Positions 2,366 through 58,453 of a stretch of DNA of 64,000 nucleotides are shown in pieces. Positions within the stretch are counted from its first letter, which is position 1; the number at the start of each line of letters is the position of its first letter. The stretch is from Sphaerolaimus hirsutus (taxonomy: Eukaryota > Nematoda > Chromadorea > Monhysterida > Sphaerolaimidae). Under the pieces are notes generated by a model. It did not search any database, had not been told where the DNA came from, and saw nothing but the letters and a program-made list of their open reading frames with translations. The translations under genes were made by a program, and so were the position numbers. The DNA lies in contig OZ038458.1 of NCBI GenBank assembly GCA_964036195.1, forward strand, positions 13,033,832-13,097,831. The letters run 5' to 3'.

Positions 2366-2890
2366 TAGGGTGTCAAAATAATTTTTTTACGGAAAACGGA
2401 AACGGCAAAAAAATACAGCGGCCGGAGAACGTAACGGCAAAAATTTGCACTTGCCGGAAAACGGAAACGGAAAAATGAAATTTGCATAGAAACAGGAAAA
2501 GTTGCTGAAATTTTACCGGAAAGCAGAAAAAATGCTGAAATTTGCTGGAAATTTTGAAAATTGCTGAAATTTTGGTGGGAAATGGAAAAAAATAACATAA
2601 TTGTAAACCTGCATACATGTTTACCAGTTTGGCTGAAACAGAAAACAACAGCTGAGCCGGAAAAAGTTAATATGAGGTGGAAAAACAGAAAATTGAGCCG
2701 GAAAATGGAAAAAAGGTGGAAAAACAGAAAATTTAGTCGGACACAGAAAAAAAGCTTAAAAAAAACTGAAAATTTAGCTGGAAAACGGAAAATGAGCCGG
2801 AAAACGGAAAAATTTTCTGTGGCCGGAAAACGAAACGGAAAACGGAAAAAATTTGCCTTCACAAAATAAAAACGCAAATTTGACACCCTA
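2366..2890. mobile_element. hAT-like foldback MITE, GGAAAACGG arms
   Basis: The element begins TAGGGTGTCAAA and ends with the inverted TTTGACACCCTA. It is flanked on both sides by the 8-bp duplication CCTATACG (2358-2365 and 2891-2898). The interior is a degenerate tandem of CCGGAAAACGGAAA units, inverted between the two arms. No transposase frame is present. The 8-bp target-site duplication and TAGGG tip are typical of hAT-derived non-autonomous elements. The long open frames across it are low-complexity artefacts. Confidence 0.85.
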
Positions 2891-3175
2891 CCTATACGAT
2901 GATCACCAGTAATATTTAGGTTGGTAAATGGAAAGACTGCGAAGGAAATAGCCTATCAGCGATCAATAAAAAGATACATTATGACTTCGGATAACTCCCA
3001 CCCTGAGTACTTCCCCCCAGCAACAAACGGTCGCATGTGAGCAACAAAAATATTCTCCTAGTTCTATATTGTCAGACACAAAGAACAATAGGTAGATTAA
3101 AAGCAAAACCCACTTAAAAACTTCTAAGCCACTTAGTTATTATTAGTTATTTATTATTTGTCACTTAGGAGTTGC
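2891..3175. promoter_or_regulatory. 3' flank of FUT gene with poly(A) signal
   Basis: Read on the minus strand, an AATAAA hexamer (complement of 3150-3155) lies about 20 nt past the fucosyltransferase stop codon, a suitable place for a polyadenylation signal. The rest of this AT-rich stretch shows nothing else I can support. Confidence 0.45.
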
Positions 3176-6100
3176 TTAATTGGTACCAATTTTCGTCCAC
3201 AAAATCGCCCCATTGGGCTGCACTCTAACACTTTCACACTGAGCCTTTCCCACCCACCAATCATAGATGTTCTCGATTGATTTCGCGCGTAGTGCGCCGT
3301 TATGCAGCGCGGCGCACAGATTGCAGAACGCAGACGGGGAATTCTGTGCCTCCAGCGATTCGTATTGAGTGCGCCAATCGAAGTAACTGCAATACATAGG
3401 TATGTTGACTATTCCGTTCGTTCGCGACGAACCCTGACAACATATTCAACTTTTTTGGAGTTCTGCCAATTCCCCTATTTTTATGTGGAGACGGGTGTAA
3501 AAGTCACCCGACGGGTAAAATATGTCTACAGTGCGCGCAGAAATTTCTGTTTTTTATTTCTTTTTCGGCCATCTAAACAACCAGACGAAGAGACCCCGTA
3601 CGGGAACTCGGCAGCCAGCCAAAAACAGCCGGCCGAAACTTGTTTCGAAATCGATTAAATAAAATAGGCTAAAAATAGGTATATAACCATCTATATAGAC
3701 GAAAATAGCGAAAATACCTCTCTGCATCTCAGAATATATGCGTTACCAGCGAAATGTAAGATATATAGCAATTAAACTTCATTGTTGAGCCACACACAAA
3801 AGTGACATGCCTGACCGAAAATGCGTGCTTAGCGCTCGCGGGCATTCACACCAAAGTGGGCGGAGCTTATGCGGACCGGCGCATGCAAAGCAAAATATCT
3901 GCGCGCACTGTAGAAGTTGGTTGAAAATTATGTTCCAAACGCGATGACGGCAAAAAATCGACCGCACCCACCTTGAAATACCCCCACCCAATCTGAGTGT
4001 AAAGCGAACGTATTTACATGACAAACACCTCAGTCTGCGATCTGCATAATGCAGAACACATGTTGAAAACAATGACTTCGTTGAATTAGAACAGGGCTCC
4101 TATAGTCAGTGGTCCCACCTAAAATCAACGCTTTTACCTACTATGACAGGCTTACCGCAAATATGCTTCAGTGTCCTTGTCCAGGTGGATCAGATGGTTT
4201 GCGAAGTCGCGCATGTTGGTGAAGTCATCTACCGCAATGAAGGCAGAGTCGGGTAGCAGCCCCGACACTATCGATCTGAGAAAATCATACTTTCAATGCC
4301 ATAAAAGACAGTGTATAGTAATCAGCCTGCAACGCAAAACTTATGTGGTGAACGTGAAGTTTTTGATAGTAATTTTGACGGTCTACAAACGTGCTGTTTG
4401 GTTGACCAGACATCACATGGATGTAGGCTTGCACCTGATCTGAGCCCGGCCCTCATCTAGACCCAGCACTGATATCTACTGTTACCCGCTCCCCATCCAG
4501 ACCCGGCGCTCATCTATACAACCCCACCCCCGACTCCAGCAGCTGCAGTTGTCACGCAGTGTGCTGTGAATGTACTTTAACAATCTTCCAACACAGATCT
4601 AAGACTAATTACATCCCACCAGTCATGTAGAACCGCTAGTAATGTCTGGGGGCATACATGCCTCTAGCAGGCAGATACCGTATTACCTCGAAATACCCCC
4701 ATGGGGGTTAATTTTTTCGCCAGCAAAATTTGAGGGGGGGGGGGTTAATTCGAGGGGGGTTTATTATTTCGCCAGAAATTTTCGTGAAATTCATACTAAA
4801 GAATACGCCTTTTCTTACACAAAAACGGTAATAAATGTGAGAAAAAAGGTCATATTGGGGCTATAAATGTACATTTGTACACAAATGAGCGTATAAGTGT
4901 AGCTGCGATGCAAATAAGTAGTATACTCGGCGTACGTGATACTCTGCCCTCGCACTGATTTATGTCTCGTGTTGGAAGCGTGCCAATGATTATTAAATCA
5001 TGCGATTTCCGTAAAAATATGGAAAAAATTCATCGATGTGGATGTGTTAATGAAAAACATTATAAAAACAATCAATGTTGTCATCTTTTTATGAAACTCG
5101 GATGCGTTAACCATCGTTGGCACACTTCCAGCGGGAACCACGCGTGCAGGGTGTAAAGTAACCGGAGTATAATAAATACATCATGTACATTGCATACATG
5201 ATGTACATCATTCCAGAGGGGGGGGGGTATTTCGAGGGGGGGGGTTATTATTTCCCCAGCCCATTTTGAGGGGGGGGGGGGGTAATTCGAGGGGGCGGGG
5301 TTAATCCAAGGGGGGGGGGGATAATTCGAGGTAATACGGTAGTGACATGTAGCCATATTACATTATACCCCCGCAGCCATTGCATTTTGCCCGCTAGTCA
5401 TGTACATGACTGGCGGGTAAATTACATGATGACCGGCTCTTCATGACGAGTTGGTTTACATGACTAGCAAGCCTAAAAAGTAGAAACTGCAGTATTATAC
5501 ATACCTTCTAAGCACAACCAGGACCATGTCAAAGCGCCATCGGTGCCAGACCTTCTCAGTGACGTAGTCCATGCACGCGTTGTTCTCGAACGCGAGCAGG
5601 AACTTGTGGGTGCGGTTGGCCAACTGTACGCATGGGTCCTGGCCCTGGGCATCGAGTCCCCAGTCGTACGTCTTGCACACGTCCGTGCGACCGCAATAGC
5701 CCCACACGTCCACGCGGCCGCCCGTAAAGCGAGAGAGGGCCTGCGTCATGAATCAGTCACTTAGTTTAGAAAGTGACCATTGCGGAAGTAACGTTTCAGG
5801 CTGTGACGACTCGTGCACAAACCGGTCGACCGGCGCCACAACAGCATACCTGGATCACAAGCTTCCTGCCGGACGGCGGATCGCAGTTGCTGGAGATGGA
5901 CACTGCCAGGCTTCGTTTCGCCTCAGTTGCAAGCCGCAGCCGGCGGCGCTCATCATCCACATCGGCTGCGGGGGGCATTTTCCACGACGGCAGCCGATAC
6001 ACGCCGCCGTAAGGGCGAGGAAAGTCCGAGTCGCGACGATACGTGATGGTGGCGTTGAATAAGTACGGCGGCAACTGCCTGCACGCGGAGATTTTTCAGT

Positions 6101-7894
6101 GACGAATCATGACCGATCGTTCAGCATGTACCCAAGCAAGGTGAGGGTGTGAACGGGATACCGATCATGGGCCAAGCAAAATATTGAAATTTTCGAGAGC
6201 CAGGAGCCAGAAGCGCCAGAACTTTTTTTTCGCAAGCGGTAGCGTCAGAGACCAACGTCATGGCGCTTTTATATCACTAATGTGGTGCCTATTTTGACGA
6301 ACGCCATGGCGCCATTGGCGTTTGTCGCCATTTTTATTTATGAATGGTGCCACGCCACGCTTTACCCTTACGAGCCCTGATTTCGATGCCAGCAAATAGA
6401 CCCGATCCCGGTACCGACACCGAAAGCCCAGTACCGGTTGAACCCTAAAATGTGGTAAGCGCCGCACCTGATTGTAGGCCCATTTGCTTGCGGGGCTTCA
6501 GTTTCAAAAAACACGTAAAACTGCTCCGGCACGCGCCACTGTGGAAGACTGCCGAGTGCCTGCGCACGCGGATGCGATATTTCATCGTGTACTCATCATT
6601 TGAATGTTAGAATTCGAATGCGTCGGCATTGTTTTTAGACACGAATTACAAGCACGGAAACACGATGTCCACGGAAGAGACGCTTGTTTAGGGAAAGAGG
6701 TTTAGGCCAAATACCGTATTTCTTCTAATAGTACAGCGCCGTTTTATTTTTTCGCCAACTTTTTTACCTGCCGTTCTATTGGAGGCTGCCGTTCTATTTT
6801 TTTCGTCAAACTTTTTCACACGATTTTCATTAAAACACAATATTATTAGTTAGACACGCGCGACATTTTAATACCAGAGCATCAATTTAAACAAAACCAA
6901 AGGTGAAAACAACCCCTGAATCACAGTTCTAAACACCCTGGATGTATTGACCACCAACTTTTCAAATATTTATGTGTTTTGGCAATGTACAACGTAATTT
7001 CTACCTGCCGTTCTATGTGAGGTGCCGTTCTATTGGAGGCTGCCGTTCTATTCTTTTCGTGGGTGTAAAAAAGTGCCAAAACCTGCCGTTCTATTGGAGG
7101 TATGCCGTTCTATTAGAAGAAATACGGTATCCGAGTTTCACAAAAAATACTCAACACATTCCTTCAAAATTCTTGCAATGCGCATGTATTTTTAGCCAAA
7201 AAAAACAATGTTAACATGGGGCTTAAATGTTTCAGCGAACGGGGAACGTCGTATTTACACAACGGAGCGACGCACAGTAAGTTTCCCCTAGCCTTAACAA
7301 CACCCAAAAATCAAAACTAGCATTGGGTGTGTGCATCGAATACCCATGAAAAACGACGGCATCAGCAGCAGAAAGATGCTGTCTGTCGTCTGTAAAATTG
7401 CACTGCAATTCCGGACATGGGGACGGCTGTATTGCGGGAAAAAGCGACTCGCCCATAAAGGGAGTCCACGCCAGGATAACCGGGAGGCGGTCGAGCACCG
7501 AACTGGGAAATCAAACGAGTTGACATGTGGGCATTGAGACGACGATATTGGCGGCCCACACACTGGTCAGCTGGTCAATGTCAACTCATATTTCGGCTTC
7601 AAGTGTCGTAGAGCGATCTTCCAGTGCACTTGCCTTAATATTTATTTTCAACATTTATTATGGAGATCGCGCTGCAATACGTGAAGCCGAAATCCGAGTT
7701 GACACAGATTAGTTGACACGTGTGTCAACTAGAGTCCGGGCCACCATTGCAAACGCTCACCCATTCCTCGCGTATAAACGGCGCACAGCGACACCAAACA
7801 GTACAATAGCAATGATAATCACAGCCAAAAATGTTAGTTTGTGTCGACGGAGAGCCCTCATCACGTCTCGCCCAGCGATCCAGCGATTCGGCAT
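3176..7894 (-). CDS. GT10 alpha-(1,3)-fucosyltransferase, 7 exons, 399 aa
   Basis: This is predicted to transfer fucose from GDP-fucose to N-acetylglucosamine-containing glycans in the Golgi. Exons in transcription order: 7761-7894, 7304-7502, 6468-6538, 5850-6078, 5505-5740, 4156-4275, 3176-3386. Phases sum to exactly 400 codons including the stop. Exon 1 encodes a short cytoplasmic tail and a single hydrophobic anchor (about residues 21-37), the type II topology of Golgi fucosyltransferases. The catalytic part shows ADAVVFHG, YRRDSDF, SSNCDPPSGR, VDVWGYCG and the donor-binding signature FENNACMDYVTEKVW in family order. The last exon has the YFDWR and AFCNLC motifs of the C-terminus. The family is certain. 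Which linkage it makes (alpha-1,3 core or Lewis type) cannot be told from sequence alone. Introns 1, 3 and 5 carry small transposons. Confidence 0.93.
4675..5341. mobile_element. Foldback repeat with TACCGTATTACC ends and G-tracts
   Basis: It starts TACCGTATTACCTCGAAAT and ends with the inverted CGAGGTAATACGGTA. The interior repeats GGGGGGTTATTATTTC-like blocks with long runs of G. It lies in intron 5 of the fucosyltransferase gene. The terminal TA on each side is compatible with a TA target duplication. Confidence 0.65.
6712..7129. mobile_element. Foldback repeat with TACCGTATTTCTTC ends
   Basis: The ends TACCGTATTTCTTCTAATAG and its inverse enclose tandem copies of TGCCGTTCTATTGGAGG on both arms, in opposite orientation. 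It lies in intron 2 of the fucosyltransferase gene. A close relative lies at 23286-23741. The outer ten bases are shared with the G-tract family at 4675-5341, but the arm motif is different. Confidence 0.7.
7552..7745. mobile_element. MITE with GTTGACAC palindromic ends
   Basis: The inverted ends carry GGCCCACACACTGGT and GTTGACACGTGTGTCAAC motifs. The arms contain the inverted pair CATATTTCGGCTTCA / TGAAGCCGAAATCCGAG. It lies in intron 1 of the fucosyltransferase gene. Related copies lie in CPSF1 introns at 12021-12232 and, more degenerate, at 14495-14690. Confidence 0.65.
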
Positions 7895-9227: not shown

Positions 9228-9292
9228 ATACAATGAAATAATATTTCTACACAATTATGTTCTAACGTTCTAATAATTCACCGCCAGCCGCT

Positions 9293-12200
9293 CTAAAAAC
9301 TAGTGGTGATTCTATCAATCTCTAACAAATCGTCAGTGAGCTGGTGTCTGCTGGTGCCCAACCGCTTAGCCAAGTCCGCGCGCTCGGCTATGCTCAAATC
9401 GAGATAGCGATACAGCAGGTCGCCGTCCAAGACGTTGCGAGCGGAACTGTGCGCGCCCGCGCCCGGCCCGCATTGGGTCGCCCGGTAGCCGCGCGCCCAT
9501 CTGCGAGTGCAGTGCAGTGAACGTGACCAGTTAACGAAGGATGCCAGACCACAGGGACGGAGCGAGAACACAGGGGGCAGACCCAGACTCTGGTAAAGTG
9601 TCGAATGTCATGCTACATGTCAATCAAAACAAAAAATAAAAATATTATTATAGAACTTTGCATGACAAATGACACTTTACTTTACATTTGTCATGACAAT
9701 TGACACTTTGCATTCTATTTTACATGACATTTGACACTTTACTTTACACTTTACAGGATCTGGGATTGGCACCAGGTGACAACAGATCATTGTTAAAAAT
9801 GATGGCTCAGGATTCACGGACGTGGGAAATTGCCGAGTTTCGCACCTGGCAGCTCTGGGATGCAAGCCGGCAGGCTGCTTCAGATGTCCAGCCAATGTCT
9901 GCTGCAACGTGTGCAGCCTTCTGTACTGTTTCTCCGAGATCGGCAGCAGCAAGCCGGTGCCGCCGTCGAGCGTGCCGAACACGTTCACGTGTCGACTGGC
10001 CGCCTGCAGCTTGTTGTCCACGGCCGCGTCGCTCACGTGGCCCTGCACGCGCGCCAGCCACGCCACCCGCTGGCCGATGTAGATGTCGCCGCGTTGGATC
10101 AAACGCGTGCCGCCCAGAGATTCCTTGCTCTCGGGCTGGTGCGTGAAGAAGACCAGGTTGCCTGGGCACGTGCGCGGGTCATGCAATAGGTCAGTTTGGT
10201 TGGAAGTACAGTCAATTTCACCGACCGTCCTCGTCGGTCATGAGGAAGGCGAGCATGCGGTTGTCCACCATGAAGTCGACGGCCATGGTCATCGCTTGGA
10301 TGGGCATGGGCCGCATGTCGCGCGCCGCCACCGACAGGCACTTTTCTTTCTCCTGAATGCGAACCTCACTATTTAAAAGGATGGGTACAAAACACAAGGC
10401 CGACAAAAGCAACCTGATATCTGACGATGGACACCGATCGATAGACATCGGCGACCACGGCCAGCGAACGCACGGAAACCATTTGATGCGCGTACAAGTG
10501 CATGTCGATGAAGCTGATGCCCTGCAGGTCGTTGTCGCGCCACGACCAAATGTAGATTTTCTGGCCCACGCCCATCAGCAGGTAGCCGTTGAGGGCGCAC
10601 AGCGAGGATACGGGCCCTTTTTCCTCGCGACTCATAATCGTTTTGAGTTTGTGCATGGTGGCTGGCTGGCCCGGCTCTGGCACCACCTGAGTTAGGGTAG
10701 GGAGCGATGCATACCATGTAGGTTCCGAAAACAATGTTATAATCAGCTGTGAAGATGAATTTTTTGAAATAATGTCTACTTTCTGAATGAACCACACACA
10801 CACACTACAGAGAACATTACAATTCTTTATAACTTATTTTTAGTATCTAGGCAATAAACTTTCCTTACTGCGGGATTCAGGTATCATTGTATTCTCACAT
10901 CAGTCAATGTTCATCAGAATTGGTAAAGCTGCGTTACACTGCGACTTGTGCCGACAATTCGAAAAGTGAAAAAGTTCCATAATTTTGGAATTAAGTTCCA
11001 TATCTGCGAGAAAATGCAGTGAAGTATACTCACTAGTTAACTGCACTCACATGCCAATTTGCAGATAAATTGTCCATGTCGTTCCAGAGTTATAAGCATT
11101 TTAGAAATATTTCGGTTTTCGATCCAAAAAAGTAAAACGACAAGCGAAATATTTTTGAAATGCTTATAACTCCAGAACGACATGGACGATTTATCTGCAA
11201 ATTGGCATGTGAGTGCACTAAACTAGTGAGCATGCTTCACTACATTTTCTTGCATATATGGAACTTTATTCCAAAATTATGGAACGTTTTCACTTTTTAA
11301 AATTGTCGGCACAAGTTGCAGTGTAAAAGCAGCTTCACAGAACACATATCACCGCATTTATGGTATTTAAATACTAAAATGCATACAAAATCGGCTGGGC
11401 ACAATAGTTCAAATACAACGGTGGGTCAAATCGAAACCAACCTCAATCACTTCGATGATGAATACCCGGCCGCGAATAATAACCTCCTCTCCATAGTTTA
11501 TACCAGTTCCAATGGCCAAATAGCTTTGCAATCCAGTCATTGTGCTTTCCGAAGCCATGGCCACCTGCAGACAAAATAGAATACATAATCAATCATCAAT
11601 ACAATTTGAAAGCTTTTGAACGGATGCATTCAAAACGACCTCTTTCATCACGAGGACAGATTCATACTCCAAGAAATCGATTGCGCCAGCGCCAGCCACC
11701 GGTTCCCACGATTCCGGTGAATACAGCTCCATCTGTAGGCATTTGCGAGTAACATACAAAGCTAAAAAGCGCCTTTTTACTCCATATTTAACAAACACGA
11801 TATTTATCGACCACGGCATCAATAAACGTGGTGTCAGCGGGTCGCTCAATAGTGTCGAATTGCTTCTCGTCGCCCACCATGGCGCCCACCCGTCTGTGAG
11901 TGGCTGGGCTCGCTGTCGCTACCGCGTACGTGTGCGAATCCAGCAGGTAACACACGTGCGTAACCTTTAACGTTAAAAAAACTATCATAACGTATCCTAA
12001 TGACTAACAGTTTTTCCAATGGCGGCCCGCACAAAAGTTGACACATGTGTGTCAACTGGTTTGTGTCAACTCAGATTTCGGTATCACGCGTCGCAGAACG
12101 ATCTCCAAATGCACATGCGGCAATGTTGAAAAACAAATATTATGGCAAGATTGGAAGATCGTTCTGCGACACGTGAAGCCGAAATCTGAGTTGACACGCA

Positions 12201-15200
12201 TGTGTAAACTAGTGTGTGGGTCGCCAATAACGGGAATGTCACCAACAGTCTTTCCAATTTTCGTTCTCCATACGGGCAGCGGGGCATCGTAGCAAACTCT
12301 ATCAGGCAATGTGCACACGCGCATGGTGCCAGCGGACCTGGCGCCATGCACTGACCCAACGGCCGGCTCGCCCGTCAAATACAGGAAACCCTTTGTGCAG
12401 TTCGGGTTGTTGAATGGACTGCGAGTAGGGCAATTGGCTATAGTCGGCGGACATCACAATCAGTATAGAAACCTACCATAACCCATCGGAATAATGAATT
12501 CAAAACTTATACAGCTTTTTTCATCGTAATATTTCGTTTTTACTATGAAATAATTAATAACGAAATTTATCACAATATTTAATTCATTAAATTATGATAG
12601 GATTCTGCGTAAGGTATGTGCTCCATTCGGAATATGAATTTTTGGATCAAAATCTCTTTTTATTATAGACGGATGTTATTCACCTGAAGCTGGTGACAGG
12701 TCCATCAAAATTCATGGGGTGCACGCGCATCTGCCCGGCGCCAGCAAAAATCCAATATGGATACGGCCCGGCCACGAAGATGCCGCCCTGCTCGTAAGGC
12801 CCCAAGGCGTCCCAGAGGTGCAGCAGGCGGGTGAAGCGCACCAACTCGTCGCTGGCTGCCAGTGCCGCGCCGCCTGCACTCGCCGCCGCGGCGCCCGACA
12901 GGCCACCCTCGTCTGAACATTGAACGAAATGTTGCTGCGTGTAGTGATGTGCTAGCGCCAAGTAAAAGGCGTCATGGCGCCAATGACATCATCATCGATG
13001 TGCACAAACTACCACAGTATTTTTTATATAAATATTGAGCAATGGACTCACCACCCAATTGTCGCTTTCTCGTTTTTGCAGCCACGGCGGCGGCGACCTT
13101 ATTGTTTCGCAGCACTAATACTCCACCATCTGCCCGGCTTAGCCGAGAAAAGCGTACGCCCAGTCTGCAAATTGATGACCCAAGTACCTAGTGAGTATTC
13201 TACCCTGTGCCTAGGGTTCAAACGGGATTGACCTTTCGGGATCGGGATCGGGATTGGTTTTTTGAGATTTCGGAATCGGGATCGGGATCGGGATTTGCCG
13301 GGATTGGGGTCACGGGATCGGGATTGGCATTTTTTCGGGATCGGGATTGGGGTCTTGGGATAGAGAGTTTGGCCAATGTTTTGGCATCCACAGTTGTTCA
13401 TAAAGGTCTAAAATCACTGTTGGATGCCAGAAACCTGGCATAAAATGAACGCTGGGGGTTTGCGTTCACATTTTTGCATGCAAAAACATCGTTTTTTCAC
13501 TTTTGATAATTTCCACTCATTTTTCCGGGATCGGGATTTGAAAAGTTTCGGGATCGGGATCGGGACTGCTAAATCCCGGAATTTCACGGGATCCGGGATC
13601 GGGATCGGGATCCCGTTTGAACCCTACCTGTGCCTTCCACAAGTTTACCTAGTTAACAACAAAACTTACCACAACTGATTTACCTACTTAAAACACATTT
13701 GAGTTAACTATAACGAATCACTTTTGATTTCCGTCAACAGTAGTTAATGGAGTCCCTATTCCAGAAAACTCAAAATGGGTTTGAAACAGATGTATGAAGT
13801 TTGAAATTTCGGTCGTCCACTAGTGTGTGAAGGGAATACATTGCGTATAGACACAAACTAGACGCACCAATTGACGTCAGTTGTCAATGTAATTTTTCAT
13901 TCAGTTGTGTAAAAATGTGACATGTATGAGAATCATTCGATTGAACTTTAAAATTTGAGTAATTAAAACTATTCAATTATTAAAAGGTGATTGTCATACA
14001 CTTCCAAAAATTGAATTGACAATTGACACGTCAATAAGCGCTCTTTAAGACACATCCTGAATTAACATCAAAAAGTGTACACACCTGTTGGGCATGGCCG
14101 AACCGGTACAGGAGAACACTTCATAAATATATAGTTCATCGCCAATGACTGCTAATAAATGTGGTCTGGCTCCATTCGTTCCCAAACCTGCATTTATAGC
14201 CACACAGTTTTTTTTCGAGGGCATAAAACCAGAAAATCCCTTCAAGTCGGCACTTGCGCGCGCCACCATCACAACGCACCCACGCAGGCTATTTCCTTGA
14301 CAGCACTAGCTGCATCCTTATCCGCCTGCGCTACTGGCTCATTGCTGCCAGCGGCGGAGCCGGACGCCATGCCCGCGCCCGACGACATCAGCGACAGCGA
14401 CACCGTGTCGGCGTCGAACAACGTACAGTGCGCCCAGGGGAACTTGCGCACCTGTTAGGAAAACGGAATTGACACAAAAATGCCCCTACACATGCTAGTT
14501 GACATCGCAAATTCGTGCCAACTCAATGTCAACTAAAAAAACAAAAAAAATGTAAAAAGCATCACACTTAACAGAAACAATGAAAATTCGCTGTCATGAT
14601 GTAAAATTAACTTTGCACTATTAGATCGAGAGTTGAAATCACATAATTCACTAAAATTTTTAGTTGACACTAATTCAGTTGACATCCAGCGTGTGCGGCG
14701 CCAAAGGGCCCTTTCTCAACAAACAAACAACAACCAACCGTATACACGCACTGCAAGCCGGGTAGGGAGTAAACTTCGAGCAAGCCGTGCGAGTTCGCCA
14801 CGAACAGCCAGAACGTGGGCATGACCGTGTTGGGGTCGTTCAGCACGCAGCCGCCCAGGGCGAATCTCAATTCATCATCCACGCCGCCATGCAACAGCGG
14901 TTTAGCCTCCTCCCTCTTTTCTGTGATACCAGCAGTCCCTGGGTGGAGGGAGGGACTTGTGAGCCTTTTTTTCAAAACCGTCGGCTGGATGATGAAATGA
15001 AATTTATAAATAAATTAATAAGTTTGCACGAACTTGGTTTGAACGACATGACAACTGAAAGTTTCTGTATTAGCTGATGTCTCAAAATTTTTGATATTGT
15101 TATTTTATAGGCCGTATTTCCTCGGGGGGTGATTGTTTTGCAGAGTGAGAATTTTGAGGGGGGTTAATCGAGGGGGGGGGGGTATTGAGAGGGGGGTTTA

Positions 15201-47881: not shown

Positions 47882-47951
47882 AACAGCGGACAAGCCAGGT
47901 CCGGCACCCACTTTCTGAGTCGCTTGTCTGGACCTGGCTTATCCGCTGTTA
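47882..47951. repeat. Hairpin with 20-bp stem
   Basis: AGCGGACAAGCCAGGTCC is followed, after a loop of about 27 bases, by GGACCTGGCTTATCCGCT. The stem is perfect except for one position. Function is unknown; it may be a minimal deletion derivative of a MITE with CGGACA ends. Confidence 0.6.
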
Positions 47952-48045
47952 GCATTCAAAAAAATCACTGATTTTTTGGAAAATATATATCAATATATCA
48001 CTCCAAGTTTGGAAAAAATATAAATATATACAAATCACTCTAGGC

Positions 48046-48873
48046 CAGAGTTGCGAAAACGTATTTACGTTTACCCGAAATACCCGGTTATTCGGGTATT
48101 TATACTTACGTTTACGTTTACGCTTTCCAAAAATACCGTTACGCTTTGTTACGTTTTCCTGGCACAATTACCCGGGTACCAGAGAAAACGTAAAAATATG
48201 CTACACGGAACCATATTGTTTGACAAATATAGTGTATTATGATGAGTTCAACATGTTCTAATGTTGAGGAGTTCTGATTCCGCAATTGGAGAACTCAAAC
48301 ACCAATTTGCAAGTGAAAAGTAAAAAGTTGAATGAAAGTATTTTTGTGAGGGAGAACTGAAATGCAAAAAAAAGTCAAAAACATTTTTAGTGTTTTCTCA
48401 TGACTGACCATTTGTCTTTTGACTTAACATTTCACTTACAAATTTACTTTACTTTCAATTTTTACTTGCCATTCAACTTGCCATTACTTCTCACTCATAA
48501 TTTTTTAGTTTTCCTCTTACGGAGTTGGCACATTATGGCCCTACACCCAGTAGTTGACAACAACGCAAAATGTCAATTCCAATCCCAATTCAATATCCCG
48601 ATCCCATCATTCTAAATATATATATAAAATACGGGTAAGCAGGAAATGTTGATGGAGATCATATGAACATCCATATTGTTTAAAAAACATTGTGTTTTTG
48701 TATTCTCTGATAGCGGAAGCACTTTATATAGTTTTTACGTTTACATTTTTTTTTACATTTTCCCCGGTATTTTAAAAAATACCTTACGTTTTAGTATTTA
48801 TACTTATGATTTGGAAAAGGTATTTACGTTTACGTTTACGTTTTCCAAAAATACCAGTACTTGTACAACTCTG
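48046..48873. mobile_element. hAT-like foldback, TTTACG arms
   Basis: The ends are CAGAGTTGCGAAAACG and TGTACAACTCTG, with a perfect 8-bp duplication CTCTAGGC (48038-48045 and 48874-48881). The arms repeat TTACGTTTACG and its inverse. A relative lies at about 49270-49590. Confidence 0.9.
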
Positions 48874-49139
48874 CTCTAGGCCCCCAGAAAATATAATTAA
48901 ATCACTGAAAAAATAACTCAAAGCTAAAAAAATCTCAAAAAATCACTCACACTTTTCCCAATTTCAAGCAATATTCTGGGTTTTATTTACCATTTACAAA
49001 CACAAAAATGTACTCTAATATCACTCAATCCATCTATAATCATTTCACAAGCAGTATTTATTTCATACAACATTTGACAAGTGAATACATCAAGCAAATA
49101 TCACACAGAAAAATTCTAAGGGTAGGAAAGGGGGGTCTG

Positions 49140-50160
49140 TGCCAGTGCGCATGTAAACTCAGCACCCATATACGCTCGGTGCCCATGTTATTCAACTGTA
49201 CACTAGTCTACATGGGCACTGGGTTTATATGCATGGGGCCTACATGTGCACCATACCCATATACTGGTATTTGTGGTAAAGCTAAATGTAAATACCTTTT
49301 CCAAATTTCAAGTGTAAATACTAAAATGTGTTAATATTTCAAACATACATAGGTAAATGTAAAATAAAATGTAAACGTAAAAATTTCGAGAGGTGCTCTG
49401 ATATAAGTAATATTTGCCAAGGGTTTTTGTAACATGTTTTTAACATAACCTAGTTTTTACATTTTCTCTGGTACTCTGGTAATTGTGCCAGGCAAACATA
49501 ACAAAACATTTTTGGAAAACATAAATGTAAACATAAGTATAAATACTGTAAATGGTAAACGTAGATTCGTTTTGGCAACACTGGTACAATGTCTTCCACA
49601 ATTCATCCTGCAACCCACCCGCCCCGTGCCATGTAGCGCTACATACGGGTGCGCATGTAAACCCGGTGCGCATGTTACCCGGTGCCCATCTAGGGGGCTC
49701 TACATGTGCACTGAGTCTACATGGACACCGGGTTAGTGCTAGATGGGCACCTGGGCTACATGGGCACCGAGTTTTCATGTGCACGCCGAAAGGGGGGACG
49801 AGTCCTCACCGAAAGGGGGGGGTACCACAAACTGCCCAGCTATCTTTCTATTCTGGAGGCTGCTCAGCTACATATCTATTCTGGAGGCAAAATTTATGGT
49901 TACTATCACCTGAACCCCCCCCCCCCAAATTGCCCAGCTACCTAGCTATCTGGAGTGATTTTTGAGAAATTATACTCCAATTTTCACTTAAAATCACTAA
50001 TTTTCATACATTTTTTTAGTTTTTCACGCTCAAAATCTTGATTCATGTTCTTTATAGGTTTTAAGCTATTTTTCGCTTATCTGTCTCTTCGGAGGAGCTA
50101 TTTGTTTATCTATCCAACCCCCTAAACGGTCAAAATCTAGCCCACACCTGCGGGCCTGCA
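49140..50160. repeat. GGTGCCCATGTA tandem arms and GATAGATAG fragment
   Basis: Units of GGTGCCCATGTA and inverted TACATGGGCACC occur at 49140-49260 and 49640-49785. Between them lies a TTTACG-arm fragment. From about 49790 the sequence becomes a CAGGGGTCTCC-family fragment with C-tracts. No gene is present. Confidence 0.5.
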
Positions 50161-50649
50161 TCAGCCTCCAAATTTTGAGTTTGAGACATTAATGCATTGC
50201 CATGATGCAAATATTGATGGCCAAAGTATTAAACGTTCATAATATTTAGCTGCTTCGAATAAATACTACCTATTTTCAATGAATACCTAATGCTCTACAC
50301 GAGCAGAGGGATTTTCTGGAGAAAATCACTGTGGGAATTACCCTGCACACATTACATGTTTTAGTCATAAAGTGTATTCATTGCGCCATTATGTATCTAG
50401 TATGAGTGATTTTCTCAGTGATTTTTTTTTGAATTTCAAAAATATATATAATATATCACTCAGAATTTGAAAAAAATATAAATATATATAAATCACGGGT
50501 TATTTATATTTATTGTGATTTTCGAAAATATAAATCACGGGTTATTTTTTGAATGCTATCCGCTATTTATAATATAAAACTTAATTATACAAACTCTACA
50601 TAGCTAGGTATCTGGCCGATTAGCGGGGAGGGGGCAAGGCAGGGGTTTC

Positions 50650-51065
50650 CAAATAGAGTTCAAACGGGATTGACTTTTTGGGATCGGGATTGGTTTTTTC
50701 AATTTCCGGGATCGGGATCGGGATTGCAGCTTCGGGATCGGGATTGGTTTTTTCAATTTCTGGGATCGGGATTGGGGTTCCGGGATCGGGATTGGCAAAT
50801 TTCTGGGATCGGGATTGGCAAATTTTGTTGGCGCCATTCTGGCGCTTGGCGCTATTTTGTTTAGCGCCCAGCGCCATTTTCTCTGGCGCCCTTTAACTTT
50901 GATATTTGTGAATGGCGCTATTGGCGCCTTGCGCCATTTTTCCTGGCGCTTTTCCATCACTACTCGGGATAGATAGATAGCTGAGCGGCCTCCGCGATAG
51001 ATAGATAGCTGGGCGGTGTGGGTGTGGGGTTACCAATAACCTCCTCCGATTGGAGACCCCTGATT
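50650..51065. repeat. Partial CGGGATC and GGCGCC foldback fragments
   Basis: It contains GTTCAAACGGGATTG followed by tandem GGGATCGGGATTGG, then GGCGCC units ending TTTTCCATCACTA, then GATAGATAGCTG and GGAGACCCCTG. These are three family fragments joined together. Confidence 0.6.
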
Positions 51066-51340: not shown

Positions 51341-52315
51341 TAGGGTTCAGTTTATCGACTAATTGTCGAATATCGACTGTTTTTTTCATATTGAAAATTC
51401 GATATCAAAAAATTTGAAAAATCCCCTGTAAATGTACTCAGTTTCGTGCCTGACACACCATATGTATTTATGTCAATTTACATATATTTACAGTGGTTCT
51501 CAATGCCAGCGCCAACGCAAATGGCGCCATGGCGTAGCTCCTATGAATGGCGCTAGCGCTCCTCCGCTTGTGTAGGATAAATTCGGGGGGGGGGGGGGCT
51601 GAGCCCCACCCCCCCTGTTCGCCGGCCCAGTAAACAAGCAGCCCCTCAGGCTCAAAAATCCTGGATATGTCCCTGTCGATATCGAATATCTACCATCTTT
51701 GAATATAAATATAGAATATCGACCATTTTGTCTGATATTTATATCAAACTTGTATTGTGTCCCCCAATTAAGCCATTATTTTCATTTTGAGATATTTCTG
51801 ATTGATGTGATGTGTTAATAATATTTTAGTTGATGAGTAAAGGTAAAGTATTTACAATTTCATGTCTGTTGGAGTGCTTACTCCACATTGATTGTATTTG
51901 GTTTGATCTCCCACCTACCAGAAAATGTGGATTTGCGGCTTTTCTTCCGACATGCCCTTAAGCAATTGTGTTATTAGTAATGAACTGGAATGGCTACCAA
52001 TAATGGTTTTCCTGATACGATTTGATTCATCGGTATGATACGGTTGTTTCCCATTCTAATTTTAACTGTTGTGAACCCACGTTGAAATCACCATTCACCT
52101 AAAGAGCTAATCAAACATGTTTGCATCCACATCAAAATACAATAGGCCACTTGAAATATGCCAAAAGCAAAATATCGGTATTGAATTTTGAGCATTTTGA
52201 ATATAGAATATTGGTATCGAGGTTCCATATCCTATTGATATAGAATTCATAATATTCATAGTTTCAGAAAAAATATCGAGTATTGATATCGAAAAGTCAT
52301 ATCGTCTGAACCCTA
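51341..52315. mobile_element. TAGGGTTCAG-ended foldback, ATCGATATTCG arms
   Basis: It runs from TAGGGTTCAGTTTATCGACT to CGTCTGAACCCTA with GAATATCGA units in the arms. Flanks TTTGACAG and GTGACAGT do not form a clean 8-bp duplication. A CAGGG-family fragment is embedded at about 51490-51690. Confidence 0.7.
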
Positions 52316-52378: not shown

Positions 52379-53380
52379 TAAGGATGGCCAAAAAATGTTT
52401 TTTAACGACCCTGTTTTTTAAAATAAAAAACAGGTTTTCTAATAGCTCCCAAATATGGTCATGGGTCAACATATACAGGTATATCAGTACTTTGTGATGT
52501 GTTAAATATAGCCATAGAATAGCTGTGGAGCCATGGGATAGCATTATAAGTGGTGATTTCTGTCAAAAATACCCATTTTTGTTGACTTGTTATGTATATC
52601 GCTTTTTCTCAAATGTATGTGACTTCAAGGCAAACTTTGCATGGAATAGTGCTTAAATGAGGTTATAAGAAAAGGCTAATACATTGGCAGTGATGTTTCA
52701 CACTGTAGAAGTATGCGGGAGCACATTGGCCAGATATTATATACTACACTAACATATCACAACTTATTATTACACATAGCATGAACAAATGGAAGCTTTC
52801 ACACTAAAAATGCGTCAAAACCAATGAAAACAACCACCAATGGTAATGTGTATGTGAAATAGCGCACAAAAAATTGCAAAATACCTAGTGCATAAGGGCG
52901 GTGCACTGATACGCACATCTGCCCGTTACGCACATTTGCCCGTTTTTTTCGCTTGACACTTTTTTAAGTGATTTTTCAGATATGAGTTAAGTGAAAAATG
53001 CTGCGCAATGACATTAGTGAACTTTTTCACTTCACTCATATCTGAAAATCACTTGAAAAACAGTGAAAAATGTTTTTTTCACTGTTTTTTTCACTTTAAA
53101 CATTTTCAAGTGATTTTCAGATATGAGTGAAGTGAAAAAAGTTCACTAATGTCATTGCGGAACTTTTTTTCACTTTACTCATATCTGAAAATCAATTGAA
53201 AAAGTGTCAAGTGAAAAAACGGGCTAATGTGCGTAACGGGCAGATGTGCGTATCAGGCCTGCCCCGTGCATGGCGTAAGTACACAATTTTTTGGCTGATG
53301 TTGTTTTTCTAAACGGTTTCAATGCCTCTGTTTTTAACATTTTTTTAAAAAGACGGTTAAAAAGATACCGGCGATCCCTA
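52379..53380. mobile_element. hAT-like MITE, TAAGGATGGCC ends, with nested foldback
   Basis: The ends are TAAGGATGGCCAAAAAATG and GGCGATCCCTA. Flanks CTCCAGGC (52371-52378) and CTCCAGGG (53381-53388) match at 7 of 8 positions. It is the same family as 32998-33656. A foldback at about 52905-53262 (tips TACGCACATCTGCCCGTTAC) is inserted inside. Confidence 0.82.
52905..53262. mobile_element. Foldback, TGATACGCACATCTGCCCG ends
   Basis: The left tip is CTGATACGCACATCTGCCCG and the right tip is CGGGCAGATGTGCGTATCAG. The arms contain repeated TTTTTCACTTCACTCATATC units that can form a near-continuous hairpin. Confidence 0.85.
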
Positions 53381-53384
53381 CTCC

Positions 53385-54036
53385 AGGGGCCAGATTTAAT
53401 ACTCCCTACAGATTTGTAGGGTAGGGCGTACGCCCGACAGATTTTTTAAAGTTTAGCCGCATCGACGCACATGCACCGAGAGCAAGGCGGTTTGTAAAAT
53501 ATACGAAACCATCCCTTAAGGTTGCCGATATTGCAATACGACGTATATCACTTCGATTTTGGCCCGGAAATCACGATTTCGTCATTTCTTGGCCGTCTGC
53601 CAATTCGTTTTTTATTTTATTTGTCTGGCGGGTTACTCGCATAGGTCACGCTTTTGTGTAGTCAGGTGGTCACTTTTTTAGTGTTCACTGTCTGCAACCG
53701 AAACCATGAGGGCAGCGACAAGGAAGAAATGCATGCACGAGCGTACAAAAGCGCGTAACTATGCGTAAAGACTTATGCGAGTAACCTGCCCGACAAAATA
53801 AAATAAAAAACGAATTGGCAGACGGCCACGAAATGACGAAATCGTGATTTCCGAGCCAAAATCGAAGCGATAACCGTCATATTGCAATATCGGCGACCTT
53901 AAGGGATAGTTTCGTGTATTTTATGAACCGCCTTGCTATCGGTGCATGTGCGCCGATGCGGCTGAACTTTGAAAAATCTATCGGGCGTACGCCCTACCCT
54001 ACAAATCTGTAGGGAGTATTAAATCTGGCCCCAGGC
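53385..54036. mobile_element. Foldback, GGGGCCAGATTTAATACTCC ends, 250-bp arms
   Basis: The arms run from GGCCAGATTTAATACTCCC at the left to its inverse GGGAGTATTAAATCTGGCC at the right. They share TAGGGCGTACGCCC and CGGCTAAACTTTAAA-like inner blocks with few mismatches. No coding frame is present. Confidence 0.85.
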
Positions 54037-54540
54037 ACCAGAGAAGTGCACCAAATGTGCCAATAAACGCGCCATGAGCCAATGCCTTTTGACAAAATGG
54101 CACCTGTGCCGGCAGATGGCACCACCGCCTTGGCGTCATTCCATCATAAGTTACACGACAAACCGATGAGCGTGATTGGAATCAGTAGCAACATCAGCAT
54201 TTTGTAGTTGTTCATGACTTTTCCAGCTACCGTTTTGTCTTAAAGTAAGTTTGATGGCGTCAATTTGATGCACCACAGCTACTGCAATCACTTTCTACAG
54301 CTTCTGCTTAACTATCGCTGGCATCCGGCATTAATACCGATTTCTTAAATTTGCATGACTATAGAAAGTTATCAATAGGTGAGAAGCATAGTCTTATCAA
54401 TGGGGCTTAGCTTTACTTGTGGATGGCATATAAAACTGGGGGTCTGCCAAATTGATAACGAATTCTTTGAAAGTAAAAATAACCTACATTCATGCTATTC
54501 CTTGACTCTGCAGTGATTATAAATAAATTATAACCACGGC

Positions 54541-56130
54541 TAGGGTTCGAATGATATGAGATTGATATCGATATTCAATATATTTTTTTCTGAAACTCGA
54601 TATTTGACATCTATATGATATTGACCCTCGATATCGATATTCGATATTTAAAAATGGTCGATATTCGATATTTTACTTTCGGTATAGGAAGGTATATTTC
54701 AAGCCGCATATTGTATTTTCATGTGGTTGCAAACATGGTTGATTATCTCTTGACTGAAATGTGTATTGTAGAAGTGATTTTTAACAGGGGTTTATAACAG
54801 TCAAAATGTGAAAATGGACAAAAAACATGATGATTCAAATTGTATCAGGTAAACAAAAATTGGTAGACATTACCGTTCATACTTATAACCCAATTGCTTA
54901 AGGGAGGATACTGTAAGGAATCTCCGCGTAGCGTAGCGTATCTGGATCGGGTTGGAACCCTAGTTCAGCCAAAACAAAATTTGTCAGTAGGGCACCCACC
55001 CTGTCCCATAAACTGTAAAAATGAAAATTTCACTTTAAACCATTTTTTGTTTCACACTTAAACGTTGGTTTACAAAGTTCACTAGAGAATGGTCTAAGGT
55101 TCAAAGTTTTGTAAACAACATAACCTCTCAAATGCCTCCATAAGAAAATTTACTTGGGATGAATTCTACGATGTCAAAATGATGTCATTGCAGGAACAAA
55201 ATTTGACAAAATTTTCACGTTTTCATTCACCCCAAAAAAATTTCCTTATGGAAGCATTTTAGAGGTTTTGTTGTTTACATAACATTGAACCTTAGACCCT
55301 TCCCTAGTGAACTTTGTAAACCAACTTTTTAAGTGTGAAACAAAAAATTGGTTTAAATTGAAACATTTAGTTTGCTGTTTATGGGATGGGGTGAGTGCCC
55401 TACTGAAAAAAATTTTAATCAGCAGAACTATAGTTCAAAGTTCAAACCCAATTCAGTTTTATATTAGGTATGTTGTTGCAACATTTTTATAGTGCAGTTG
55501 GGTGGTGAACTTGTTTCGGACACTTGGGCTGTTCTTAACAAGATTATCAACTTTATATGCAGTGACCCATGCTTTAGTTGGCCGCCCCACTGGTGTATTG
55601 TGAGGGGGGTTGTTGGCAAGACATCGCCCAAATTTCAGCTTTCTACCGCCCTCACAGCTGGAAATACAGCCTTCAAAGTGTAGCTAATCAAGTGGGTGGT
55701 GAACTTGTTTGGGACACCAAAAACGCCAAAAAAGATTGTTGCATATAGGGTGACCCACCCTGTAGTGAGTCGCCGCACCTCCCCCCATTGTTGGGGAGTA
55801 AGGGGGTCTTACAACTTTATATATACAAAGTTTCAGCCTTATAACACCCCCATGGACAGAGATATTGCATTCGAAGTGAAATAAAAAAATGGGTGGTGAA
55901 CTTGTCCGGGAAGGTGTTTATGTTCGATATATCGAAAAATGGTTGATATTCGATATTTTTACAAAGTTTTTGATATCGATTTTCGATATTTTTTTCAAAA
56001 TTCGAAAAATGGTTGATATTCGATATTTTTACAAATTTTGTGATATCGATTTTCGATATTTTTTTTAAAATTCGATATTCGATATCAAAAAAATGGTCGA
56101 TATTCGATACGATATATCGTTTGAACCCTA
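54541..56130. mobile_element. hAT-like foldback, ATATCGATATTCG arms
   Basis: The ends are TAGGGTTCGAATGATAT and ATATCGTTTGAACCCTA. Flanks ACCACGGC (54533-54540) and ACCACGGA (56131-56138) match at 7 of 8 positions. The corresponding place in the other copy of the surrounding repeat (near 35820) lacks the element, which supports an insertion. A second foldback is nested at 54990-55405. Confidence 0.88.
54990..55405. mobile_element. Foldback, CAGTAGGGCACCCACC ends
   Basis: The ends are CAGTAGGGCACCCACCCTGT and TGGGGTGAGTGCCCTACTG, with arms of about 190 bp that pair nearly end to end. It is nested in the 54541-56130 element. Confidence 0.85.
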
Positions 56131-56431
56131 ACCACGGAGGACCTGAAGTACAATGGCTAATGCTTAATAAGGCTTGTATTTTTATCTGAAAAATTCCCTC
56201 TGAGGTAATTTTGTCAATCAATCATACGGGACGGCATTGGTTGCCTTTTTAATAATAACGGGGATGTAATGAGGTACACCCGATTCGATTCGTCGAGCTA
56301 GATATACAGTCCCCCCCCCCCCCCATTGAAAATATGGGATACATGCCTGAAGTAAGCTATTGCATGTTCACACACGTATTTGCATTTCTTTTATGAGGCG
56401 TTTGTTTATTACTGACAGAGAAAACACAATA

Positions 56432-56971
56432 TACCGTATTTTCTCGATATACCGTATTTCCTCGAAATACCCCCCCTCTCGTTCAACCCCCCCCCCCCCC
56501 TCTCGGGACCACTATGAAACCATCACCCCCGGGGGGTATTTCGAGGAAATACGGTACCCCATTTCGAAATACCCCCCCCCCCCTCTAAATGGACACTATG
56601 AGTTTATAAACCCTCCTCGAAATACCCCCCCCCAAATTGTGTATTGAGAACGTAAATGACAAAAGCTACGGTTTGTGATCCGGGAAACGTAGAACACACG
56701 TTAAAAACAATGATTGTGTTATGTTAGAACAGGGTTTATACTGTATACATACATAAATATATAAGTCTATAGAGTCTTATACATGGCAATTTTTGTCGCA
56801 TTTTTCGACGTCTGTGTACGTTACAGACAACAATTTAGTACTGCGATTTCAAAAAATTTCTGGCGAAATGATAAACCCCCCCTCGAAATACCCCCCCCCC
56901 GTTTAATCCCCCCTCAAAAATCTCACTCTGAAAAAATAAACCTCCTGGGGGTATTTCGAGGAAATACGGTA
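56432..56971. mobile_element. Compound G-tract foldback, TACCGTATTTCCTCG ends
   Basis: A small complete copy (about 56451-56547) is followed by a further arm ending CGAGGAAATACGGTA at about 56971. Long C-tracts lie next to the ATTTCGAG motifs. It is inserted in the long repeat copy 2. Confidence 0.65.
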
Positions 56972-57189
56972 GCCATAAAATGGCTGTGGAGCGATGAGAT
57001 AACAATGCAGTGGGGTTTTGTTTTCTGTAACAAAGAAGTTATGTTTGTCGACGTGTTATGTAATTATCGCCTTTGACCGAATGTTCGGGACTTCAACTAC
57101 GAAACCAGGACCGTAAATCCGTAAATAAATACAGCCATTCACATGCGTCTGAAGTATCAAGTACCTGACAACAAATTATGAACAAAATG

Positions 57190-58040
57190 GCAAAACAAAA
57201 GTAATATTTATGATTGAAGAAAACAGAATCATGTATTTCCTATTCAGCAGGGTGTGGCACATTTCAAACGAAATTTGATGAGACGTTTTTTCTAAAAATA
57301 GCTAAAAACCGTTGATCCTAGAATATCGATCTTATAAATATGAATAAGCACATGCTGTTGACAAAATTTTACACCCTATTACGACTTGGCCTTTCCCAGT
57401 GCCTTTTACTTTGGCCCTGGTGCTAGCACCTTTGGCACCGGCTGAAAAATGGCACCGCACCGCACCGGTGCTATTCAGAAAAAATGGCATCGGCACCGGC
57501 AGGGCACCCCTGAAAAATGGCACCGCACCGGTTTTTTAAACATGGGGTTTTTAAAAAACCGTTTTTTCAAAAGCTCCCAGATGTGGTCATGAGTCAACAT
57601 ATACAGGTAAATCAGACAGGTGACAGTACTTTGATGTTATATATAGCCATAGAATGGCTGTGGAGTCATGGGTAGTGATGGAAAGGCACCGGGGCACTGC
57701 ACCAGCACCGGTGCCGGTGCGGTGCGGTGCCATTTTTCAGGGGTGCCCTGCCGGTGCCGATGCCATTTTTCAGCCGGTGGCAAAGGTGCTAGCACCAGGG
57801 TCAAAGTAAAAGGCACTGGGAAAGGCCAAGTCGTAATAGGGTGTAAGCTTTTGTCAACAGCATGTGCTTATTCATATTTATAAGATCGATATTCTAGGAT
57901 CAACGGTTTTTAGCTATTTTTAGAAAAAACGTCTCATCAAATTTAGTTTGAAATGTGCCACACCCTTCTGAATGGGAAATACATGATTGTGTTTTCTTCA
58001 ATCATAAATATTACTTTTGTTTTGCCATTTTGTCCATAAT
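57190..58040. repeat. Inverted duplication, about 340-bp arms
   Basis: The block at 57190-57530 recurs inverted at about 57690-58040. Shared markers are GTGCCACACCC/GGGTGTGGCAC, GATCCTAGAATATCGATCTT and CATGCTGTTGAC. The right arm is the interior of the GGTGCC foldback at 57673-58453; the left arm looks like a second copy of that element in opposite orientation. Confidence 0.75.
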
Positions 58041-58453
58041 TTGTTGTCAGTATATGACAAAATATAGTAACATTTCCTGTACAATATCCACCCCAGACAG
58101 TAGACAATAGTGACTACCGGTATGTGTATTGGAGCAGATTAAATATTTGACCTATCATTTGTAATTATTCTAATTGCTTCATAAAGTGATTGCCACATCA
58201 TTCTGATCATTTTGAATGCTCACACATCAAAATTGATAGAGAATTCATGGAAAAATGCTCTTCCGAATGTGTGGCCTCTAAGAAAATACCCTATAAATCC
58301 TTCGGAACTTTCAGCCCTGTGTGGTGCCTTTCGGTGCTAGCACCGGCAACCGGCGGGTGCTTCAGGGTGCCGGTGCCGGAGCTATTTTTTTCAGAATGGC
58401 ACCAGTGCCGGTGCGGTGCGGTGCCATTTTTCCCGGTGCCTTTTCCACCACTA
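57673..58453. mobile_element. hAT-like foldback, GGTGCCGGTGC arms
   Basis: The ends are TAGTGATGGAAAGGCACCGG and CCGGTGCCTTTTCCACCACTA, with a perfect 8-bp duplication GTCATGGG (57665-57672 and 58454-58461). The arms repeat GGTGCCGGTGCGGTGC. It is inserted in a TAGGGATGGCC-family element spanning about 57530-58900. Confidence 0.9.

Follow-up and report, generated by a model that had tools for sequence, protein, structure and literature searches.

A 64,000-bp stretch of the genome of the nematode Sphaerolaimus hirsutus (contig OZ038458.1, positions 13,033,832 to 13,097,831; hereafter the window, to which every count, copy comparison and search below refers) carries many hAT-like transposable elements. 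Their tips are short inverted repeats, and in eight families the arms behind the tips are tandem arrays of a short unit peculiar to the family. In the seven families whose unit contains CG, the two arms are direct rather than inverted repeats of each other, and we propose that they are arrays of binding sites for a transposase. Including nested content, hAT-like elements make up 15,248 of the 64,000 bases by our own annotation.

hAT-like elements and their tandem arms

We scanned the window for exact 8-bp duplications bracketing inverted tips that agree at 10 or more of 12 places, presupposing no tip motif. This strict scan returned 14 places, whereas 20 dinucleotide shuffles gave 0.1 on average and never more than 1; eight of the 14 have hAT-type tips (TAGGG, CAGGG or TAGTG) and six fall within hairpins or arrays. 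The eight are a subset of ten elements whose target-site duplications (TSDs) match at all 8 positions (2366-2890, 13212-13626, 19340-20200, 21559-21976, 23927-24455, 32998-33656, 34402-34827, 39752-40404, 48046-48873 and 57673-58453). The remaining two have looser tips (8/12 at 39752, 9/12 at 48046) and were covered, together with four elements whose duplications match at 7 of 8 positions (32683-34034, 46521-47859, 47950-50558 and 54541-56130), by looser tip-motif scans run with no shuffle control. A hAT terminal inverted repeat begins with (C/T)AGNG. For the strict set, 8-bp duplications combined with such tips are far above chance. A first-pass annotation of this DNA had counted at least ten perfect duplications and four at 7/8 and had proposed hAT-type mobilization; both scans bear out the count, and the duplications and tips bear out the mobilization. 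At least four tip types are present (TAGGG, CAGGG, CAGAG and TAGTG). One further candidate, 52886-58725 with a 7/8 duplication, was discarded as a chance pairing, its arms showing no similarity.

All eight array families (F1-F7 and F9) have exact inverted tip runs of 5-17 bp and subterminal arrays at both ends. F1 (2366-2890, plus strand; tips TAGGGTGTCAAA, TSD CCTATACG 8/8) has arms of CGGAAAA units, which include AAACGG, at ~2380-2490 and ~2655-2850 in the same polarity. F2 (13212-13626, plus; family tip TAGGGTTCAAACG, tips of this copy TAGGGTTCAAACGGGAT, TSD CCTGTGCC 8/8) carries CGGGATC arrays at ~13223-13345 and ~13526-13612, again of one polarity. A second full copy, F2b (35968-36393, minus), is 81% identical to F2 across 446 aligned columns, and its flanks do not form an 8-bp duplication. 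Of a third copy, F2c (50654-50830, plus), the left end and array are present; a TAGTGATGG/GGCGC right end (50837-50962) comes next, and a CAGGGGTCTCC-ended stretch at 50640-51062 encloses both. F3 (19340-20200, plus; tips TAGGGTGGCAGA, TSD GCCCTGGG 8/8) combines CGGTAC and CGGTAAA units at ~19352-19500 and ~20049-20188 in one polarity. F4 (46521-47859, plus; tips TAGGGTTGGGA, TSD 7/8) has CGGTTC arrays of the same polarity at 46545-46650, 47515-47560 and 47805-47848, with other repeats in its interior.

F5 (48046-48873, plus; tips CAGAGTTG, TSD CTCTAGGC 8/8) carries CGTTTA arrays at ~48058-48170 and ~48735-48850, mainly of the same polarity; a decayed and shortened copy, F5b (49246-49583, minus), has an intact left end and a cut right end. 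F6 (54541-56130, plus; tips TAGGGTTC(A/G)A, TSD 7/8) has CGATATT arrays of one polarity at ~54560-54680 and ~55930-56118, and its decayed copy F6b (51341-52315, minus) holds a CAGGGACGTATCC-type insertion at 51469-51675. F7 (57673-58453, plus; tips TAGTGATGGAAA and TAGTGGTGGAAA, TSD GTCATGGG 8/8) lies within an F10 copy and has CGGTGC arrays, mainly of one polarity, at ~57683-57790 and ~58330-58445. The unit of F9 (23927-24455, plus; tips CAGGGGTCTCC, TSD GTGAGAAG 8/8) has no CG: its arms hold poly-G and GATAGATAG units, two on the left and six on the right, all on a single strand.

The arms of two further families are less clear. F10 (32683-34034, plus; tips TAGGGATGGCC, TSD 7/8) has T-run arms; a nested copy sits inside it at 32998-33656 (TSD CTATTGAA 8/8) and another lies at 39752-40404 (minus; TSD GCTCTATC 8/8, tips 8/12). 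F11, with family tip CAGGGACGTATCC and G-run arms, is found at 21559-21976 (plus; tips CAGGGACGTATC and CAAGGCCGTATC, TSD GCTTATAT 8/8; poly-G arms with no polarity signal) and at 34402-34827 (minus; TSD TGTGGCGG 8/8). F8 (TAGTGATGGAAAAGCGCC/GGCGC) is represented by fragments only (43645-43785 and 50837-50962), and a single end with CGGTAC-like units lies at 6447. A candidate F13 (47950-50558, plus; 14-bp tips TAGCATTCAAAAAA, TSD 7/8), possibly older, hosts F5 and F5b. F2, F5, F6, F7, F9, F10 and F11 each have more than one copy or part-copy. The idea that each family has its own tandem motif stands for eight units and is not confirmed for the T-run arms of F10, which have no clear tandem unit. 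Nor do the arrays always start right behind the tip, as had been suggested: the first units lie 12 and 33 bp inside the F1 tips, and the first F4 unit lies 14 bp inside the left tip.

Orientation, palindromes and CpG content of the arms

Left and right arms, without their tips, were tested for direct and for inverted similarity in two ways: local alignment against the best of 60 shuffles, and shared 6-mers against 500 dinucleotide shuffles. In local alignment, each of the eight elements with a clear unit had direct similarity above both its inverted similarity and the best shuffle; in F3, F7 and F9 the inverted similarity, too, rose above the best shuffle, with lower scores. Direct 6-mer sharing was significant in each of the seven CG-unit families (F1-F7, P<=0.002 each), and F1, F2, F4 and F6 had no significant inverted sharing (500 shuffles). 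The second F2 copy behaves in the same way (direct P<=0.002, inverted 0.68), and the decayed F6b shows no significant polarity (direct 0.30, inverted 0.24). By local alignment F10 is mixed, with the copy at 32683 leaning toward inverted arms (21.0 versus 15.5; best shuffle 15.0).

The first-pass annotation had described these as foldback elements, which would have long inverted arms. In F1-F7, however, the arms beyond the tips are direct repeats (7/7), with inverted sharing absent or weaker, and the array families are therefore not foldback elements: it is mainly the tips that are inverted. This also excludes, as the general origin of the arrays, a seed within the inverted tip that expanded inward at each end, because arrays made in that way would be inverted.

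A CG-bearing palindrome with arms of at least 6 bp, no more than 60 bp from the tip, occurs at a single end in five of the eight families: on the right in F2 and F6, and on the left in F3, F5 and F7. The F2 right and F5 left palindromes share their geometry (two 7-bp arms around a 2-bp gap, together spanning bp 12-27 and centered on bp 19.5) and that of F6, ACGATATATCGT, occupies bp 11-22, so that the palindromes of three families fall inside bp 11-27, the interval of the Hermes left-end site (PMC10368747). The F2 palindrome is retained in F2b; that of F5 is gone from F5b. Near the tips we counted 5 palindromes in 968 bp. The zone from 60 to 230 bp has 6 in 2,674 bp, of which F6 accounts for four; deeper element sequence has 1 in 3,226 bp, and DNA outside the elements has 41 in 48,752 bp (0.84 per kb). 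Per-end values of the five range from 0.003 to 0.017 (300 mononucleotide shuffles, uncorrected for the number of ends tried); their spread over five different elements is, taken alone, not beyond chance (~0.4 by simple counting).

CG is present in seven of the eight units, compared with 26% of random 6-bp units drawn from the window. The arms hold 160 CpG in 1,957 bp (observed/expected, o/e, 1.79), and elsewhere in these eight elements there are 85 in 4,911 bp (o/e 0.51), a roughly fivefold difference in density; outside hAT elements the o/e is 1.06. Measured by o/e, the arms of F7 and F9 are not enriched (0.81 and 0.64), and those of F7 are enriched by density (8.0 versus 1.3 per 100 bp). We also looked for methylation-driven decay. 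Over eight copy pairs, CG had changed to TG or CA at 44 of 216 sites, with ordinary C-to-T changes at 94 of 764 and G-to-A at 100 of 1,033; CG changes are no commoner than these two rates summed, and there is thus no pooled deamination signal. Two short pairs are high when taken alone (5/12 in the F5 left arm and 10/18 in the F6 left arm).

Copies, shared modules and neighboring sequence

Between the two full F2 copies, the arms show indels of 6, 6, 31 and 6 bp, for a unit of 6 bp, and the interior a single 2-bp indel. Identity at aligned sites is 96.0% and 93.8% in the arms and 85.8% in the interior, figures that alignment of repeats can flatter. The F2 arrays are thus, if anything, better conserved than the interior, which suggests constraint rather than free growth; F11 arms are also better conserved than the F11 interior. 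Arm growth by tandem duplication, as the first-pass annotation had it, fits the whole-unit length changes between F2 copies and fails where it places that growth at inverted tips, given direct arms in all seven CG-unit families. Altogether, the number of units drifts, and in some families the unit sequence is held.

Similar tips can head different arms. The tip TAGGGTTCAAACG precedes CGGGATC units in F2 and CGATATT units at the right end of F6, and the near-identical TAGGGTTCAACCG precedes the CGGTAC-like end at 6447, which suggests turnover of the unit. F3, F4 and F10 also have in common an interior module, a GCGCGCTTGC-type quasi-palindrome immediately interior to the right arm (blastn E values between 0.01 and 9e-8). 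It lies inside the F3 right array at 19947-19966 (plus strand), at 33513 and 39872 in F10 and at 47373 in F4, with half of it in F2 (13471 and 36133). The module, whose quasi-palindrome reads GCGCGCTTGCGCGCAAAAAATTTGCA with variants, also occurs apart from the array elements, near 31770 in unassigned DNA. F3 and F9 share another interior stretch of 88 bp that is present elsewhere in the window too. Shared module and similar tips are compatible with replacement of the unit among related elements and do not prove it.

True long-armed hairpins, the real foldback-like elements of the window, lie at 37449-38373, 53383-54035 and 10962-11297, with arms of 286, 240 and 160 nt that are 95, 93 and 90% complementary, respectively. 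Inside the second, 53417-54001 has TAGGGTAGGG tips and flanks that match at 6 of 8 positions. A reversed, tipless part-copy of F7 (57165-57530) lies next to F7 (the part at 57673-58050), with arms 97% identical over 293 nt; the two form a large inverted repeat, produced by inverted duplication or rearrangement. Tandem 17-bp units, AATAGAACGGCAGCCTCC, occur in opposite orientations at 6769-7103 and 23301-23682 and may be another repeat family. GGTGCCCAAGTAAA-type tandem units, partly inverted, lie at 29498-29602, 30616-30737 and 49648-49689, near fragments of CC2D1, and GGGGGTAATTCGA- and GGGGGTATTTCGA-type repeats and their complements are scattered at 5272, 15443, 56880 and 60812 and within F4.

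Gene fragments span 9677-10833, 20379-20948 and 30562-30966. They include a CPSF1-like fragment on the minus strand (CPSF_A, with a propeller match below the curated cut-off) and a CC2D1 fragment on the plus strand (DM14), which suggest animal DNA. For protein domains we scanned 63 of the 91 in-element open reading frames (ORFs) of at least 50 aa, leaving out 28 of low complexity, and 120 other ORFs picked by hand from 161 that were at least 80 aa long and complexity-filtered. The in-element ORFs gave only two weak, unrelated matches at E<=0.05 (Peptidase_C48, 0.02; DUF3823, 0.039); glycosyltransferase 10 and ubiquitin-conjugating-enzyme matches were found among the scanned ORFs. Scans of the window for Rfam families at gathering score and for tRNAs found none.

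Relatives were also sought by exact pattern in viral and microbial collections. The F2 tip has 13 matches in IMG/VR, none with an array adjoining the tip; the sequence context is common to 12 of them and different in the other (contig L003). A (CGGTTC) repeat pattern has 12 IMG/VR matches, all in one other repeat region of viral contigs. That region, conserved across L015-L026 and rich in ACCGAAACTT and CGGTTC repeats, shows no sign of a link to the elements. The GTDB pattern search gave a single match, a record titled as a bacterial metagenome-assembled genome, without an array, and the remaining exact-pattern scans of these collections gave no match.

The arms as candidate transposase-binding arrays

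We consider it probable, at roughly two in three, that the arms are transposase-binding arrays, that is, expanded subterminal repeats (STRs) of non-autonomous hAT elements. The elements would be small non-autonomous DNA transposons of the hAT superfamily, resembling miniature inverted-repeat transposable elements (MITEs) or Ds, whose short inverted tips would be the sites at which a hAT transposase cuts and joins, and whose tandem arms would be enlarged STRs, predicted sites for its N-terminal BED zinc finger. With units mainly on a single strand, the array points away from the tip at one end and toward it at the other. A near-tip unit in the opposed orientation may pair with an array unit, making a palindrome at one end only, and this one-sidedness would make the two ends unequal, as in Hermes. 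Whole units would be gained and lost through local duplication and deletion, and families would differ since unit and finger specificity had changed together. Several related putative transposases are probably involved rather than one.

In their position, repetition and polarity, and in the opposed pair of five families, the arms appear to fit a known hAT pattern. Repeated short motifs inside the tips are described as a defining feature of hAT elements (PMC4890040; also PMC10368747, PMC3143072) and have been called haphazardly placed (PMC4890040). Hermes of Musca and Tol2 resemble the elements described here in their 8-bp duplications, short tips, short motif repeated at both ends, unequal ends and, for five of the families, palindromic motif pair near one tip. 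The BED finger of Hermes binds AAG(T/C) repeats; at the left end STR1 and STR2 form a quasi-palindrome within bp 11-27 that is cooperatively bound by two BED domains and proposed as the first site bound; the left end carries STR2-7 in antisense orientation and the right end STR1-5 in sense orientation; pairing of two left ends is antiparallel and unproductive, and an element built with a left end on each side shows no activity (PMC10368747). The left end of Tol2 is similar, with a perfect palindrome, AAGTACTT, directly after its terminal inverted repeat (PMC10368747). As described there, Hermes STRs are 4-mers (AAGT or AAGC) in irregular places and form no head-to-tail arrays, whereas the units here are ~5-9 bp long, mostly with CG, and specific to the family.

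Other systems share parts of this organization. In Herves of Anopheles the motif that the transposase binds, C(G/A)ATTCAT, is likewise repeated at both ends, and four direct repeats are enough for binding (PMC3143072). The motif and its variants, however, are reported there only several times per end, in an autonomous element with a known transposase. Ac binds AAACGG (PMC3260210), a hexamer that occurs four times in each arm of F1. Maize elements such as Ds1 and Ds-l4 are similarly non-autonomous and, apart from the tips and in many cases AAACGG hexamers, have little in common with Ac (PMC3260210). A single hexamer serves that whole family, and the elements here carry no evidence of a relation to Ac. 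The motifs of Kat1 differ in polarity between its two ends (PMC4763223). Coral CMITEs also have families with different ends that share an internal region (PMC2872659), comparable to the module of F3, F4 and F10, but they are of piggyBac type, and the sections of that report drawn on here mention no tandem arms. Galileo, of the P superfamily, and Tetris, placed in Mutator by its authors, have long arms with internal tandem repeats, some of which, in Galileo, hold transposase-binding sites (PMC3688188, PMC4079207). With these and the hAT subterminal motifs (PMC4890040) already described, the earlier statement that no named group looks like this was too strong. The arms of Galileo and Tetris are long and inverted, whereas those here are direct repeats. 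Sea urchin TU, of foldback type, likewise has long inverted arms with internal tandem repeats. Our literature search, which covered titles and abstract openings and lay outside repeat databases, found no same-direction, family-specific, CG-bearing tandem arms, and the literature passages covered gave no target-site consensus by which to place the elements in a hAT sub-family.

Several observations weigh against binding arrays. No transposase, BED or hATC domain was found in the 183 scanned ORFs, a scan that shorter decayed pieces could escape, and BED binding of the arms is for this reason something we only infer. Inverted 6-mer sharing is marginal in F3 (0.046) and significant in F5 (0.006) and F7 (0.002), in the latter two below direct sharing; it is also found in F5b (0.038; direct 0.004) and in F9 (0.008; direct 0.004), where sharing of both kinds arises from poly-G, the GATAGATAG units being all on one strand. 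F10 and F11 show no significant 6-mer sharing, direct or inverted, and no polarized array. F1, F4 and F9 have a palindrome at neither end (CG-bearing, arms of at least 6 bp, within 60 bp), those of F3 (bp 32-46) and F7 (bp 33-48) lie ~20 bp, or two helical turns, deeper, and that of F6 adds little because F6 units are themselves near-palindromic and inflate the count. Arms and interior are about equally conserved in F5, and arms are less conserved in F6 and in five of six F10 comparisons; in the left arms of F10 and F6 the F2 pattern is reversed. Hermes itself is an imperfect precedent: its structure has no BED contacts at the right end, transposition was not dramatically lowered when the inner putative BED sites of the left end were mutated, and a left/left element was not rescued by giving it back asymmetric sites (PMC10368747). 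Its STRs would lie on one strand, as the arrays here do, only if the published description of each end runs inward from the tip.

We weighed three other explanations. The one put forward in the first-pass annotation, in which foldback arms grow by tandem duplication beside the inverted tip and keep producing new families for one transposase, draws on the whole-unit length changes between F2 copies, the similar tips with different units (F2, F6 and the end at 6447) and the interior module of F3, F4 and F10. Direct arrays in all seven CG-unit families mean that, as a rule, they did not grow out from inverted tips, and the same unit at both ends requires a common seed or selection; we regard this account as very unlikely. 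History alone might instead explain the arms, with no binding role, if one tandem array gained hAT tips or an array-filled element had its middle replaced. This would account at once for the same unit on the same strand at both ends, and it suits F1, which is array-like along much of its length, and the other repeats in the middles of F4, F6b and F3. It leaves unexplained the CG in seven of eight units, the CpG-rich arms, the near-tip palindromes and the conservation of F2 arms above the interior, and we think it improbable.

A single promiscuous hAT transposase might also recognize the tips alone, the arms being tolerated or serving a host factor or as bendable DNA, an idea partly compatible with binding arrays. 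Several families have similar tips (TAGGGTT...), some Ds1 elements without AAACGG hexamers are reported to be still mobile (PMC3260210), and a DNA-bending cellular factor has been hypothesized for the inner end sequence of Hermes (PMC10368747). The window nevertheless holds at least four tip types, Tol2 and Tag1 are described as requiring ~100-200 bp of each end (PMC10368747), and Ds-like elements with Ac tips were immobile with Ac, though these also bore hexamers (PMC3260210). We hold recognition by tips alone to be unlikely.

Beyond the proposal that the arms are binding arrays, a general design rule for hAT elements may be imagined, which we offer tentatively and with more doubt than belief. 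A same-strand array of CG-bearing finger sites at both ends would be combined with an opposed pair near one tip, with Hermes and Tol2 as faint examples, and the unit would be a replaceable cassette, rewritten repeatedly within one lineage together with the BED finger while tips and interior module stay. Same-strand CpG sites could further mean that, once the DNA has replicated, one and the same hemimethylated strand is read at both ends, a possibility proposed for Ac (PMC5371812); our pooled copy comparisons hold no CpG-decay signal to back this idea.

Subterminal repeats of hAT elements are known from few elements, and here eight families present them as written-out arrays within 64 kb. In seven the rule is visible by eye (a CG unit, mainly on one strand, at both ends), with the opposed pair in five. 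A foldback label would misplace such elements in repeat annotation. If the design rule is true, families would arise by changing the "lock" and not the "door". The arrays bring two questions within reach of sequence comparison: how hAT transposases distinguish the left from the right end, and how a lineage changes its recognition site yet stays mobile.

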